The notes under the pieces are model-generated. The model was not told where the DNA came from and made no database searches. It worked only from the letters and a program-made list of their open reading frames with translations. Shown in pieces: positions 23,837 to 29,490 of a stretch of DNA of 32,370 nucleotides. The stretch is from a virus. Location: IMG/VR virus record IMGVR_UViG_3300034759_000313, positions 1-32,370 of that record, one strand, 5' to 3'. Within the stretch, counting starts at the first letter, position 1, and every line of letters starts with the position of its first letter. The position numbers and the translations under genes are program-made.

Positions 23837-24322
23837 GTGAAAATAAATCAGGCGGAATTTGACCGATTGGTAATGTCCTTGCTCTCTGGCACGAGCCCTG
23901 AAAAGGTCGTCGAGCATTGTCAGGCAAATTTAGGCCTCACTGCCAAAGAGGCCCTGAAGGTTGTCAACGAGGCCAGAAAGAAAATCACCCTCGCGGCGGA
24001 TTTTGTGCGGGATGAGCAATTGGGCACGGCCATCTCGCGTATCAACAATATCTACTCCAGGGCGATACGCGAGCTGGATATCAAGACGGCATTGCAGGCC
24101 CAGCGGGAATTAAACAAACTGATGGGGCTTTACAGCGCCGATGCCGGAGGAACTGGTTCGGACGGGATGGGGGAGGTGTATCGCGAAAAGCTGGAATTGA
24201 TTAAGCAGTATATTTTACCGCTTGAATTGGTCGACGAAAAATATCCCATCGAAGAGCACGTCAGAGTAGCGGCGGAAATCGTGCGTGAAAAAAAATACAA
24301 CACAAGCATATCAGACCGCTAA
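23837..24322 (+). CDS. Terminase small subunit
   Basis: 161 aa with GTG start after GGGAATGCGGC. The N-terminal helices (QAEFDRLVMSLLSGTSPEKV, then LTAKEALKVVNEARKKI) look like the DNA-binding region, followed by a central helical oligomerisation part (ISRINNIYSRAIRELDIKTA, QRELNKLMGLY) and a C-terminal segment that would meet the large subunit. It recognises the packaging site. It overlaps the large subunit gene by 38 bases in another frame. The family was recognised by size, fold pattern and position. Confidence 0.82.
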   Translation: MKINQAEFDRLVMSLLSGTSPEKVVEHCQANLGLTAKEALKVVNEARKKITLAADFVRDEQLGTAISRINNIYSRAIRELDIKTALQAQRELNKLMGLYSADAGGTGSDGMGEVYREKLELIKQYILPLELVDEKYPIEEHVRVAAEIVREKKYNTSISDR

Positions 24323-26363
24323 AGACAGGGCGCGTAAGCGCAGTCTTTGGGTAACGCGGGCGGGGCAGGACATCGGGCCTATACCACCCGTCAAAGATAT
24401 TGAGCGGCGGATGATGGGCGAAAAATCGTTCCGGTTTTTTTGCGAGACGTATTTTCCGCAGTTATTCCGCCTGGCCTGGTCGGATGACCACCTGCGGGTG
24501 ATTCAGAAAATCGAATCCGTCGTTGTTTTTCACAATACCTTTGCCGTGGCAATGCCGCGCGGCAGCGGCAAAACAACATTAAGTCTTGCGGCCGTCATCT
24601 GGGCCGTCCTGACGGGCAAGCACGAGTTTGTTTATCTGCTGGCCTCGGCGGACGACCAGGCGATTAAATTGCTCGGAAACATCAAAAATCAATTGTCCGC
24701 CAACCCATTACTGCTTGAGGATTATCCCGAATCCATCTATCCCATCCAGCGACTGGAAAATGAGGCTCGACGCTGCACAGGTCAAAAATGCCTTGGGGCC
24801 CCCACGCATATCAAGTGGGGCGTTAACGAGATTGTGCTGCCGACCATCCCCAACAGCAAGTCGTCTGGAGCCGTGGTACGGGCCTGCGGGCTTGCGGGCA
24901 ATTTCCGCGGGGCGATGGTTGTCCGGCCAAACGGGCAATCGATACGCCCTACACTGGTAGTCGCTGACGACCCGCAGAACGACGCATCTGCAAGGTCGAT
25001 GGTACAGACCGCAGAGCGTCTGTCTATCCTTAATGGCACCATCATCGGGCTGGCCGGCCCCGACCAGAAAACCGGTGTCATCGTGCCGTGTACGGTGATT
25101 CAGCGGGGTGATTTAGCCGACCAGATTTTAGACCATAAGCGATTTCCCGCCTGGCGCGGGGAGCGAACGAAGATGATTTATCAATGGCCGAAAAACGCGG
25201 ATTTATGGGCCGAGTATTGCCGATTGCGGGAACAGTCCATACGCGATAATGGGCACGGGCAAGAGGCCACGGAATTTTATCGCAGAAACAGAGAGGCGAT
25301 GGACGAGGGGGCTGTTGTGGCCTGGCCTGCCCGTTTTTCGCCGGAGGCCGGTGAAATCAGTGCCCTGCAGGCGGTATATAATCTGCTGCTGGATTACAAG
25401 GAGCAAGGGTTTGCCGCCGAGTTTCAGAATGAGCCGCTTAGTGAGACGTTAGACGAAGAGTCGCTGCTGACGGCGGAGGATGTCTGGAGCAAAGCCAACG
25501 GAAGACCTCGCGGACACGTCCCGCCGCAATGCACAAAATTAACGGCGTTTATTGATGTCCACGACAATCTGTTGTTTTATACGGTGTGCTGCTGGGAAGA
25601 TAATTTTACGGGGTATGTGGTGGATTACGGCACCTTCCCCAAACAAAATCGGCGCCATTTTACGCTGGCAAACGCGACGCATACTCTCGGACAGATGTTT
25701 CCGGAGGCGGGGCGGGACGGGGCGATTTTAGCGGGGCTGGAGTCCCTTGTTAAGACCCTGCTGGAGACTAATTATCAGCGGGGGCAGGGCTATATGCAGA
25801 TTGATCGGCTGCTTGTTGACATGGGGTATAAAGATAAGATTGTCGCGGCGGTTAAATTCCGTGCGGGCGGCTCGACGATGATGCTCTCTAAGGGTGTTGG
25901 TATACGAGCGGGCAACCGCCCCATCTCGCAATACCAGCGCAAGGTGGGGTGGAAACTTGGATATCACTGGTACATCCCCAACGTCGCACGGACGCAGGAA
26001 CACCCGCATATGGTGATTGATACAAATTTTTGGAAATCATTTTTACACGACCGATTTTTAACGCCGCCTGGGGATGCGGCATCGTTGACGTTGTTTGGAA
26101 AGCCGGAGCAGCACGAGTTGTTTGCCGCGCATATCGCTGACAGCGAGACGTGGGTGATGACACACGGCCAGGGGCGCGACGTCAAGGAGTGGCGTCTCAA
26201 ACCATCCAAGCCCGATAACCACTGGCTGGACTGTCTTGTTGGATGTGCCGCGGCGGCCAGTGAACAGGGAATTGCTCTTGAAGGCCAACAGATAATGGCG
26301 TCGCGACAAAAGAAACGCCTGAAAATATCCGAATTGCAATCCAAAAAAAGGAGTGCCCGATGA
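24285..26363 (+). CDS. Terminase large subunit
   Basis: 692 aa with GTG start at 24285 inside the small-subunit gene. Walker A is AMPRGSGKTT (~89-98), with LLASADDQAIKLL after it and Walker B LVVADDPQND (~224-233). The C-terminal RNase H-like nuclease has TAFIDVHDN, RLLVDMGYKDK and a late HWLDCLVG aspartate. It pumps DNA into the prohead and cuts concatemers. It is longer than average, comparable to large gpA-type terminases. The stop overlaps the next ATG (ATGA). Confidence 0.95.
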   Translation: MKKNTTQAYQTAKDRARKRSLWVTRAGQDIGPIPPVKDIERRMMGEKSFRFFCETYFPQLFRLAWSDDHLRVIQKIESVVVFHNTFAVAMPRGSGKTTLSLAAVIWAVLTGKHEFVYLLASADDQAIKLLGNIKNQLSANPLLLEDYPESIYPIQRLENEARRCTGQKCLGAPTHIKWGVNEIVLPTIPNSKSSGAVVRACGLAGNFRGAMVVRPNGQSIRPTLVVADDPQNDASARSMVQTAERLSILNGTIIGLAGPDQKTGVIVPCTVIQRGDLADQILDHKRFPAWRGERTKMIYQWPKNADLWAEYCRLREQSIRDNGHGQEATEFYRRNREAMDEGAVVAWPARFSPEAGEISALQAVYNLLLDYKEQGFAAEFQNEPLSETLDEESLLTAEDVWSKANGRPRGHVPPQCTKLTAFIDVHDNLLFYTVCCWEDNFTGYVVDYGTFPKQNRRHFTLANATHTLGQMFPEAGRDGAILAGLESLVKTLLETNYQRGQGYMQIDRLLVDMGYKDKIVAAVKFRAGGSTMMLSKGVGIRAGNRPISQYQRKVGWKLGYHWYIPNVARTQEHPHMVIDTNFWKSFLHDRFLTPPGDAASLTLFGKPEQHELFAAHIADSETWVMTHGQGRDVKEWRLKPSKPDNHWLDCLVGCAAAASEQGIALEGQQIMASRQKKRLKISELQSKKRSAR

Positions 26364-26602
26364 AGACGGAAGAATTTGAACAGATTGTTAAGGTCAAACC
26401 GGAGACGGCGTTAGCGGGTTTGATGGTCAAGCATATTGTGGCTCTTTATGATTTTATTCGCGAACACGAATCGGGCGTCAGGCCTTCTCGTTCTTATGCG
26501 TTTTGGGACGAGAAGATAGGGGATATACAAGCCTACCTATGTCTTCTTGACGCGATGGTTCTTGAGCGTTTGGCAAAACAAACAGATGGAACGATTCAGT
26601 AA
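26360..26602 (+). CDS. Small protein, copy 1 of a duplicated pair flanking the methyltransferase
   Basis: 80 aa. From residue 22 it reads MVKHIVALYDFIREHES, then WDEKIGDIQAYLCLLDAMVL, almost the same as the protein at 27352. The first 21 residues have no counterpart there. No known domain; it is helical and acidic. DNA similarity to 27352-27552 is also high. It overlaps the terminase stop (ATGA). Confidence 0.8.
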   Translation: MKTEEFEQIVKVKPETALAGLMVKHIVALYDFIREHESGVRPSRSYAFWDEKIGDIQAYLCLLDAMVLERLAKQTDGTIQ

Positions 26603-26624: not shown

Positions 26625-27365
26625 GTGAGAATGCTTGACCTATTTAGCGGTATCGGCGGCTTTGCATATGCCGCCAAGCAGATTTGGGGCGATGATTTGG
26701 AGATTGCCGCGTTTTGCGAAAGAGATGAATTTTGCCGAAAAGTGCTTAAAAAAAGATTTCCGAGCGTCCCGATAATCGACGACATACACGAGATGAATGG
26801 AAAAAATTATGGAACAGTTGACCTTATTTGCGGCGGATTCCCGTGTCAGCCAGTGTCTGTCGCCGGGAAACAAATGGGCCAGGCGGATGACCGCTGGCTC
26901 TGGCCTGAAATGTTCCGCGTTTGTCGAGACGCAAGGCCCCGTTGGGTCATTGCTGAAAATGTGCCTGGCCTCATTGCGATGGAACTCGACGGCGTGCTTG
27001 CTGACTTGGAAAGCGAAGGCTACCAGACAGGGACGCTTGTACTTCCGGCTTGCGGCGTCGGCGCCCCGCACCGACGAGAACGGGTTTGGATTGTGGGCCA
27101 CGCCGGCGGCGGCGGTAGCGCGGGAGTTTTACCCGACACCAACAACACAGGACGCCAAAAACAACGGCAGCAAAAGCCAGCAGGCGAGGAACACACCGCC
27201 GCTGAACGCTGTTGCCGGTGGCCCGCTGAACCCGAATTGGGTAGAGTGGCTTATGGGGTACCCCGCAGGGTGGACAGACTTAGAGCGTTAGGCAACGCCA
27301 TCGTACCGCAGGTGGCAATGGAGATATTCCGCGCAATACGGAAGATTGATTATGGTCAAGCATAG
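26625..27365 (+). CDS. Cytosine-5 DNA methyltransferase (Dcm-type)
   Basis: 246 aa. I prefer GTG 26625 because GAGGT lies 10 bases upstream; ATG 26631 is an alternative. Motif I is MLDLFSGIGGFAYA, motif IV GGFPCQPVSVAGK with the catalytic Cys of P-C-Q, motif VI AENVPGL, motif VIII RRERVWIVG, and motif X RVDRLRALGNAIVPQVA. It transfers methyl groups to cytosine C5, probably against host restriction. It is short: the target-recognition region between motifs VIII and X is only ~55 residues and Gly/Gln/Lys-rich. A second apparent gene occupies another frame here (26797-27291). Paralogous small genes flank it. Confidence 0.93.
   Translation: MRMLDLFSGIGGFAYAAKQIWGDDLEIAAFCERDEFCRKVLKKRFPSVPIIDDIHEMNGKNYGTVDLICGGFPCQPVSVAGKQMGQADDRWLWPEMFRVCRDARPRWVIAENVPGLIAMELDGVLADLESEGYQTGTLVLPACGVGAPHRRERVWIVGHAGGGGSAGVLPDTNNTGRQKQRQQKPAGEEHTAAERCCRWPAEPELGRVAYGVPRRVDRLRALGNAIVPQVAMEIFRAIRKIDYGQA
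26797..27291 (+). CDS. Overprinted ORF inside the methyltransferase gene (methyltransferase-associated family)
   Basis: 164 aa, +1 frame relative to the methyltransferase and wholly inside it. A start at ATG 26809 gives MEQLTLFAADSRVSQCLS; ATG 26797 adds four residues. The sequence is not shadow-like: RRMTAGSGLKCSAFV, SLRWNSTACLLTWKAKAT, GLWATPAAAVAREFYPTPTT, and WVEWLMGYPAGWTDLE are strings I know from phage proteins annotated next to, or as part of, cytosine methyltransferases. Both frames therefore look conserved. It could assist target recognition, or be a cryptic second product. A strong ribosome site is lacking. Confidence 0.6.
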   Translation: MEKIMEQLTLFAADSRVSQCLSPGNKWARRMTAGSGLKCSAFVETQGPVGSLLKMCLASLRWNSTACLLTWKAKATRQGRLYFRLAASAPRTDENGFGLWATPAAAVAREFYPTPTTQDAKNNGSKSQQARNTPPLNAVAGGPLNPNWVEWLMGYPAGWTDLER

Positions 27366-27552
27366 TGTAGCGTTGTATGATTTTATTCGCGAGCACGAGG
27401 CGGACGATAAACCCTATGCGTCTCTATGCGACACTATGCGGCCCTATATATACTGGGATGAGAAAATCGGAGACATACAAGCCTACTTGTGTCTTTTAGA
27501 CGCAATGATTCTTGAGCGTTTTGCAAAACAAAAAGACGAAACGACATCGTAA
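27352..27552 (+). CDS. Small protein, copy 2 of the duplicated pair
   Basis: 66 aa from ATG 27352, which lies inside the last codons of the methyltransferase gene. It reads MVKHSVALYDFIREHEAD, then WDEKIGDIQAYLCLLDAMIL, paralogous to 26360-26602. It lacks copy 1's N-terminal extension and has extra residues (~20-35) before the conserved WDEK. The function is unknown. Confidence 0.78.
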   Translation: MVKHSVALYDFIREHEADDKPYASLCDTMRPYIYWDEKIGDIQAYLCLLDAMILERFAKQKDETTS

Positions 27553-27568
27553 AAAAAACGGCAGACCG

Positions 27569-27754
27569 ATGACAAAAGAAAAAATTGTGCTGTCTGACAT
27601 CGCCGCACAGCGGCAGACGGGGCTGATATGTACCCAATGCGGATGCCGTCATATCTACGTCTATCACACCGACACACGCAAAACCTATGTCATCCGATAT
27701 CGCAAGTGCCGGTATTGTGGCAAAACATACACCACCATCGAGCGGCTAAAATGA
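27569..27754 (+). CDS. Small zinc-ribbon protein (NrdR/Ogr-like ribbon)
   Basis: 61 aa from ATG 27569; the frame is open upstream but overlaps the previous gene. CTQCGCRHIYVYHT ... YRKCRYCGKTYTTIERL is a C-x2-C ... C-x2-C zinc ribbon whose end resembles the NrdR ribbon (C-x2-C-G-x-x-[FY]-T-T-x-E) and Ogr/Delta activators. A transcription role for late genes is possible. After it, 27755-27879 has no gene and no convincing promoter. Confidence 0.75.
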   Translation: MTKEKIVLSDIAAQRQTGLICTQCGCRHIYVYHTDTRKTYVIRYRKCRYCGKTYTTIERLK

Positions 27755-28074: not shown

Positions 28075-29490
28075 ATGGCGAGTCTGCTTAAAAAATTAAA
28101 GCGACTTTCCGCGGCCCCTAAAAAACGACATCTCCGCCGTCTGCTTGCGAAATACGACGCCGCACAAACCACCATCGATAATATCCGCCATTGGGCGATG
28201 GCCGACTCCCTGTCAGCGGACGCGGCAGCCAGCAGCGATGTCCGCAAAAAAATACGTGAGCGGGCACGTTACGAGGTGGCCAATAACTCTTACGCCAAGG
28301 GTATCACGTTAACCCTGGCTGATTATTGTGTGGGTACCGGCCCTCGTCTGCAGTTATTGACGAGTGATAATGAGCTCAATAATGCCGTTGAATCGGAATT
28401 TGAGGCCTGGACACATCGCGTCAATCTGCCTGCAAAATTGCGGACAATGCGGACGGCAAAACTGACAGATGGCGAGGCTTTTGCCTTGTTGGTCGGCAAT
28501 CCAAAACTCACGGGCCTCATTAAACTGGATGTGGCATTGGTTGAGGCTGACCGTGTAACAACCCCATCACTTAATGTTCTACCCTCGTCGACAGACATCG
28601 ACGGCATTACCCTTGACCGATTTGGCAATCCGATAGGCTACACCGTACTCAATTATCACCCAGGCGATATTTATGTGTCTGATAACGTGGCACAATATAT
28701 CACGGCAGATTCTGTTATCCATTGGTTCCGCGTCGACAGGCCTGGCCAGCATCGGGGGATTCCGGAGATTGCACCGGCGCTGCCGCTGTTTGCACAACTC
28801 CGCCGATATACCCTTGCAGTATTGGCCGCCGCAGAAACCGCCGCGGAGATTTCCTCTGTGCTCTATGCAGACCCGCCCGCTGATGGTGAGATTGCGGCAC
28901 TGGAGCCGATGGACGTCGTTGAGCTGGAAAGACGGATGACGACCGTAATGCCGGAAGGCTGGAAGCTGGGGCAGCTCAAGGCGGAGCAGCCGACAACGAC
29001 CTACTCGGAATTCAAGCGCGAGTTGCTGAACGAAATCGCGCGGTGCTTTAATATGCCGCTGAATATCGCGCTCTGTAATTCGTCGGGGTATAACTATGCC
29101 AGCGGCCGGCTTGACCATCAAACATTTTTCCGGTCGATACGCGTTGAGCAAGCCGACATGTCGGCTGTGGTGCTTGATAAGATTCTGGAGGCGTGGGTCA
29201 ACGAGGCGATGTTGACAACGGAATTTGCGGCCTTGCGGAATCTGCGGGCCTTGCCGCACCAGTGGTTTTTCGACGGCAACGAGCACGTCGACCCCGCCAA
29301 AGAGGCCAACGCACAACAGATACGCCTTAACTCCAATACGACAACCCTTGCGGCCGAATATGCACGCCAGGGCAAGGACTGGGAAACGGAATTATATCAG
29401 CGTGCGAAAGAAAAACAGCTGATGAAAAAATTGGGATTAACGACGGAAACGAAATCCGTACTGATTGATGAGGATGAAAATGAAGAATAA
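28075..29490 (+). CDS. Portal protein (lambda gpB family)
   Basis: 471 aa. YEVANNSYAKGITLTLADYCVG without its last letters is the usual N-terminal region of the lambda portal family: EVANNSYAKGITLTLADY, VGTGPRLQ, and FEAWTHRVNLPA. Later come VIHWFRVDRPGQHRGIPEI, EFKRELLNEIARCFNMPLNI and SGYNYASGRLDHQTFFR, all characteristic. It forms the dodecameric DNA gate at the head vertex. The length is near the family norm. The end overlaps the protease-capsid gene. Confidence 0.95.
   Translation: MASLLKKLKRLSAAPKKRHLRRLLAKYDAAQTTIDNIRHWAMADSLSADAAASSDVRKKIRERARYEVANNSYAKGITLTLADYCVGTGPRLQLLTSDNELNNAVESEFEAWTHRVNLPAKLRTMRTAKLTDGEAFALLVGNPKLTGLIKLDVALVEADRVTTPSLNVLPSSTDIDGITLDRFGNPIGYTVLNYHPGDIYVSDNVAQYITADSVIHWFRVDRPGQHRGIPEIAPALPLFAQLRRYTLAVLAAAETAAEISSVLYADPPADGEIAALEPMDVVELERRMTTVMPEGWKLGQLKAEQPTTTYSEFKRELLNEIARCFNMPLNIALCNSSGYNYASGRLDHQTFFRSIRVEQADMSAVVLDKILEAWVNEAMLTTEFAALRNLRALPHQWFFDGNEHVDPAKEANAQQIRLNSNTTTLAAEYARQGKDWETELYQRAKEKQLMKKLGLTTETKSVLIDEDENEE

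Follow-up and report, generated by a model that had tools for sequence, protein, structure and literature searches.

A gene nested in the +1 frame of a phage C5-cytosine methyltransferase gene very probably encodes a second part of the same enzyme

The DNA that we analysed (the window, 32,370 nt of a viral record) carries a methyltransferase gene pair between the gene for the terminase large subunit (24285-26363) and the portal gene (28075-29490). The outer gene of the pair, alpha (26625..27365, + strand), encodes the presumed catalytic subunit of a C5-cytosine DNA methyltransferase, recognizable by motifs I-VIII and X and devoid of motif IX. Inside it, in the +1 frame, lies beta (26809..27291, + strand), whose product, presumably the small subunit, bears motif IX and a putative target-recognition module and was identified through phrog_1008 and its +1-frame homologs. 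A small gene of phrog_6802 (26360..26602, + strand; E 3e-12) is the upstream neighbour and not part of the enzyme, and a second, diverged copy of the same gene (27352..27552, + strand; E 3e-7) is found directly downstream of the methyltransferase. The two copies are about 81-84% identical to each other in DNA and flank the pair as if it had been inserted with, or within, a duplication; when we looked for flanking phrog_6802 copies at the other fetched loci, none had them. A further ORF downstream (27512-27754) contains two CxxC pairs (CTQCGC...CRYCGK) and resembles a small zinc-ribbon-like protein. The methyltransferase is an orphan phage gene, with no restriction enzyme gene seen near the locus.

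Alpha comprises 246 aa when read from GTG 26625; ATG 26631 is an alternative start, and the mechanically defined ORF begins at TTG 26547. The protein matched PF00145 (E 1.2e-42, the match covering motifs I-VIII only), the dcm superfamily of NCBIfam (above the cut-off) and phrog_363 (E 6e-78). Across 37 sequences, the catalytic PCQ of motif IV (26841..26849) was invariant, as were the E and N of motif VI (ENV, 26955..26963), H149, R151 and R153 of motif VIII (APHRRERVWIVG, 27063..27098) and L222, G223, N224 and P228 of motif X (RLRALGNAIVPQ, 27276..27311), all on the + strand. The AlphaFold model (mean pLDDT 76.5, and >90 for most of the catalytic core) showed a core similar to that of M.HhaI (Foldseek E 3e-13) and, following motif X, a C-terminal helix predicted with confidence. 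Alpha thus combines motifs I, IV, VI, VIII and X with the AdoMet-methyltransferase fold, as expected of a PF00145 C5-cytosine methyltransferase. Residues 163-219, which lie between motifs VIII and X, where a recognition domain would be expected, had pLDDT values mostly <50 and are predicted to form a disordered linker. (The alignments given to AlphaFold were built without four rows from phage records.) A preliminary description of this DNA had assigned all key C5-methyltransferase motifs to the alpha frame; this is true of I-VIII and X, but motif IX has to be read in the +1 frame.

As the same description had it, the +1 ORF extends over 26797-27291 (495 bases, 164 aa), wholly within alpha, and both frames are open. 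The ATG at 26797 does belong to the beta frame, but the best start by conservation, kept in our alignment A1, is the ATG at 26809 (MEQLTLF), which makes the protein 160 rather than 164 aa long. A weak Shine-Dalgarno-like GGA (26799..26801, + strand) is found 7 nt before this second ATG. The beta product matched phrog_1008 ('DNA methyltransferase'; E 1.3e-25), as did 33/33 betas of the alignment; comparison of beta with Pfam and NCBIfam gave no match, nor did the PDB, whether beta was searched as a sequence or as a profile.

Modelled alone, beta was predicted by AlphaFold with low confidence (mean pLDDT 55.5, pTM 0.25). Its best-predicted part was a hairpin (LTWKAKATRQGRLYFRL, 26998..27060, + strand), with strands at residues 64-71 and 77-84 and a pLDDT of about 84, encoded opposite alpha motifs VI-VIII. 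Module parsing identified a 12-residue remnant of a PTP module (WATPAAAVAREF, 27094..27129, + strand), followed by a complete module (YPTPTTQDAKNNG...LNAVAGGPL, 27130..27228, + strand) that, to judge from module identity and frame conservation, is a putative target-recognition cassette. Motif IX comes next (NPNWVEWLMGYPAGWTDLER, 27229..27288, + strand), with E146 and G150 invariant and N141, P142, M149 and P152 nearly so. The motif that is missing from alpha reads LNPNWVEWLMGYP / LNPNWVEWLMGYPAGW in the +1 frame, and the stretch of M.HhaI that matches it is LHPRECARVMGYPDSY. In nearly all relatives, too, motif IX is in the beta frame. Alpha is therefore no single-chain C5-methyltransferase, which would have motif IX and the recognition domain in one chain.

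Under synonymous reshuffling of the window's alpha codons, the +1 frame acquired 3.3-4.0 stops on average and was open in 0.5-0.8% of the shuffles. Far stronger evidence for the overlap than this estimate of chance is conservation in relatives. We fetched 80 viral loci with a beta query and 31 more with an alpha query, plus phage records; the alpha query was made of six peptides, four within motifs I-VIII, one in the linker and one at motif X, and the fetched loci are related to one another, hence not fully independent. Wherever both parts were found, beta was in the +1 phase of alpha (119/119 loci, including those fetched with alpha only), and the 31 alpha-fetched viral loci had an open +1 frame with a beta match in all but one partial hit (L115). 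We also looked for a broken beta frame beside an intact alpha, the counterexample that the preliminary description had envisaged, and encountered none among the 119 loci. The few interrupted frames that we saw were in alpha (e.g., L027/L087 and L056). At L027/L087, which are the same contig, alpha has an in-frame stop in the linker, near position 2895 of L027, and beta is intact; in L032, a close relative, alpha is uninterrupted.

The same layout was found outside viral records. A scan of bacterial genomes that used the motif IX peptide alone as the pattern yielded 80 loci, spread over many phyla; in 74 of these, one frame contained motifs I-VIII together with X, and beta was in the +1 frame relative to it. 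In relatives in E. coli prophages, found by DNA similarity, the +1 frame was open over 244 and 311 codons and included motif IX.

For a double-coding test we compared 39 independent pairs with alpha identities of 55-97%. In this overlap, alpha position 3 is beta position 2, and alpha position 1 is the beta wobble. The differences at alpha positions 1/2/3 were 0.118/0.073/0.349 upstream of beta and 0.154/0.133/0.372 downstream of it, vs 0.213/0.128/0.211 in the overlap, and 38 of the 39 pairs showed a reduced third-position share there (Wilcoxon 1e-8). Opposite motifs IV-VIII, alpha positions 1 and 2 were as constrained as elsewhere (0.120/0.070), with third positions down to 0.195. Between motifs VIII and IX, alpha position 1 was the most variable (0.333), implying that beta is the leading frame there. 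In every pair tested, beta similarity was greater than after synonymous reshuffling of the alpha codons, and this was also true opposite alpha IV-VIII alone (43/43 pairs, median z 8); these z-scores are inflated for close pairs because of shared ancestry, an effect from which the within-gene comparison is free. The overlap is real, and both frames code for conserved proteins under selection, as had been suspected from the window alone and as is now borne out by the constant +1 phase and by the codon-position signature.

One might still suppose that the +1 frame is no gene and simply follows from a conserved alpha and a biased codon use, since the higher GC content of the overlap (0.596, vs 0.510 for the window) favours open frames. 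We attach almost no probability to this explanation, because the third-position constraint is confined to the overlap and the beta frame is conserved above synonymous shuffles; moreover, the single-chain dcm gene of E. coli K-12 offers no more than 88 and 45 open codons in its two other forward frames.

In relatives, AAGGAG is often found upstream of the beta start, and most of them have an internal ribosome-binding site ahead of beta. Pairing with the anti-Shine-Dalgarno sequence near the expected beta start had a median of -7.4 kcal/mol, vs -3.1 kcal/mol at control positions (p 9e-31), and in 94/164 loci an in-frame stop occurred ≤10 codons upstream of the beta start. The internal Shine-Dalgarno signals and the close upstream stops favour an independent initiation of beta over frameshifting. 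A programmed +1 frameshift after motif VIII, fusing alpha I-VIII to the beta modules and motif IX, with no separate beta, would account for the constancy of the +1 phase and would yield a chain with motifs I-IX in the usual order. Such a chain, however, would be without motif X, which remains in the alpha frame, and the beta frame is also kept opposite alpha IV-VIII, upstream of such a shift, both in the 43 pairs compared with shuffles and in the third-position divergence (0.195, vs 0.349 upstream of beta). Taking into account also the conserved beta start, with its close upstream stops and internal signals, we deem a frameshift very improbable.

Betas consist of an N-domain followed by 1-6 tandem modules of about 39 residues, each starting with [WFLY]PTP; the window's beta has one complete module plus the 12-residue remnant. 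The same module recurs, at different positions, in betas that share only 34-48% identity in their N-domains. The TTQDAKNNG module of the window, for instance, has counterparts of 66-81% identity in many relatives, the N-domains being 34-47% identical. In 30 independent module pairs, identity was 76% in the beta frame vs 35% in the alpha frame, but these pairs had been chosen for their beta similarity, so that the fair control is to count, over diverged relatives, the module pairs with 60% identity; there were 238 for the beta frame and 0 when the same DNA was read in the alpha frame. Judged by their sequences, the PTP modules appear to be exchangeable, cassette-like units and look as recognition domains would. 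Their evolution, their modular build and the disorder of the alpha linker point to beta, not alpha, as the place of the recognition region.

A different assignment of roles would make beta an accessory or regulatory protein and leave specificity to the alpha stretch between motifs VIII and X. It would agree with what has been predicted for M.EcoHK31I, whose recognition domain was placed, as a prediction, in the large subunit (PMC3404938). We regard this assignment as unlikely: the VIII-X stretch of alpha is predicted to be disordered and evolves as the subordinate frame (position 1 being the most variable, 0.333), no alpha segment is common to diverged relatives, vs 238 beta module pairs, and motif IX, which in M.HhaI is part of the small domain, is in beta.

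Most likely, the two frames divide a single enzyme between them, its catalytic domain being encoded in one and its recognition domain in the other. We consider it very probable that this enzyme is a two-polypeptide orphan phage C5-cytosine methyltransferase, with alpha as the catalytic part and beta contributing the recognition modules and motif IX, the two being active jointly. In such an enzyme, alpha would form the large catalytic domain, with AdoMet binding, the PCQ nucleophile, motifs I-VIII and the C-terminal motif X helix, while its VIII-X stretch would act as a flexible linker. Translation from a start codon inside alpha, in the +1 frame, would yield beta as a separate polypeptide, the counterpart of the small domain, with its target-recognition module(s) and motif IX. 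Alpha and beta would then bind to give one active enzyme, whose target may be a short sequence in the phage DNA, methylated most likely as a means of escaping host restriction. The preliminary description had not perceived that the two proteins could be complementary parts of one enzyme.

For the family as a whole, we lean towards a picture in which the two domains lie in two frames and tandem cassettes are gained, lost and swapped inside the nested frame. Cassette turnover inside an overlapping gene would be feasible because the other frame there encodes a tolerant, disordered linker. The stability of the overlap itself may have a similar basis, since the disordered linker of one frame coincides with the recognition region of the other.

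Lee et al., in 1995, are said to have described the small subunit of M.EcoHK31I as encoded in another frame inside the large-subunit gene. M.EcoHK31I (YGGCCR) is naturally split (PMC3439449): its large subunit has motifs I-VIII and X, and motif IX occurs only in the small polypeptide (PMC3404938). The partition parallels the domains of M.HhaI, where motifs I-VIII and X make up the large domain and the recognition region and motif IX the small one (PMC3404938). Likened by this published motif partition, the pair described here is of the M.EcoHK31I kind, with I-VIII and X in alpha and IX only in beta, and the small-subunit gene is again nested in another frame, here +1 in the window and in 119/119 relatives. 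It differs from M.EcoHK31I in being an orphan phage gene, with no restriction enzyme seen nearby, and, as far as the descriptions can be compared, in having its recognition-like modules apparently in the small subunit, whereas there they are predicted in the large one.

M.AquI (CYCGRG) is another two-polypeptide enzyme, split after motif VIII, with a recognition region that extends into the small subunit (PMC3404938). Our pair is likewise split after motif VIII, but the small subunit of M.AquI has both IX and X, whereas here motif X is in the alpha frame. AquI-like forms do occur among the relatives (L138, L166, L056 and L071/L072), with IX and apparently X in the beta frame and an alpha without X, which sometimes ends soon after motif VIII; the two known split types therefore intergrade. 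In L056, alpha ends immediately behind motif IV and is perhaps broken. Gp43/gp44 of Arthrobacter phage Andrew (L118), two annotated genes with matching extents, are probably AquI-like as well.

The C5-methyltransferases of the Bacillus phages SPR, phi3T, rho11 and H2 are single-chain enzymes. They have tandem recognition domains and several target sites (PMC8936443). The PTP modules of beta, with their putative recognition role, look similar in tandem order and exchange; unlike the domains of these multispecific enzymes, they are located in a subunit read from an overlapping frame, and only one of them is complete in the window.

Nested +1 pairs have already been deposited as two genes, namely, gp62/gp63 of Paenibacillus phage Lily ('g62 internal gene'), gp56/gp57 of Bloom and ORF31/ORF30 of Escherichia phage K1G, but the records speak of hypothetical or second methyltransferase genes, without a subunit interpretation. 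Given these records and the motif partition of M.EcoHK31I, the two-frame layout was already known, a point that the preliminary description had also missed. Apart from PMC3404938, PMC3439449 and PMC8936443, no relevant paper turned up when the literature was searched for 'Mte8' or for overlapping phage methyltransferase genes. Within the papers searched, the new parts seem to be the breadth across phages and prophages, the beta modules and the gap in the databases.

The locus is a clear and statistically strong case of a long same-strand overlap that has been kept across phages and many bacterial phyla, and its PTP modules, if their putative recognition role is correct, offer a direct route into how specificity is encoded. 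It also implies that, for many cytosine methyltransferases of phages and prophages whose annotation shows a single gene, the databases may miss a subunit. The E. coli prophages L202 (E. coli E21) and L203 (E. coli A16) carry the pair, and RefSeq annotates alpha only. Since beta has no Pfam or NCBIfam model and is absent from RefSeq at the E. coli loci checked, annotated enzymes may lack this subunit, in which case an alpha cloned alone would probably be inactive or of the wrong specificity. The betas of the two prophages share a module (WPTVTTQDNPQVR / WPTVTTIDNNQVR) that is closely like one in the viral contig L028.
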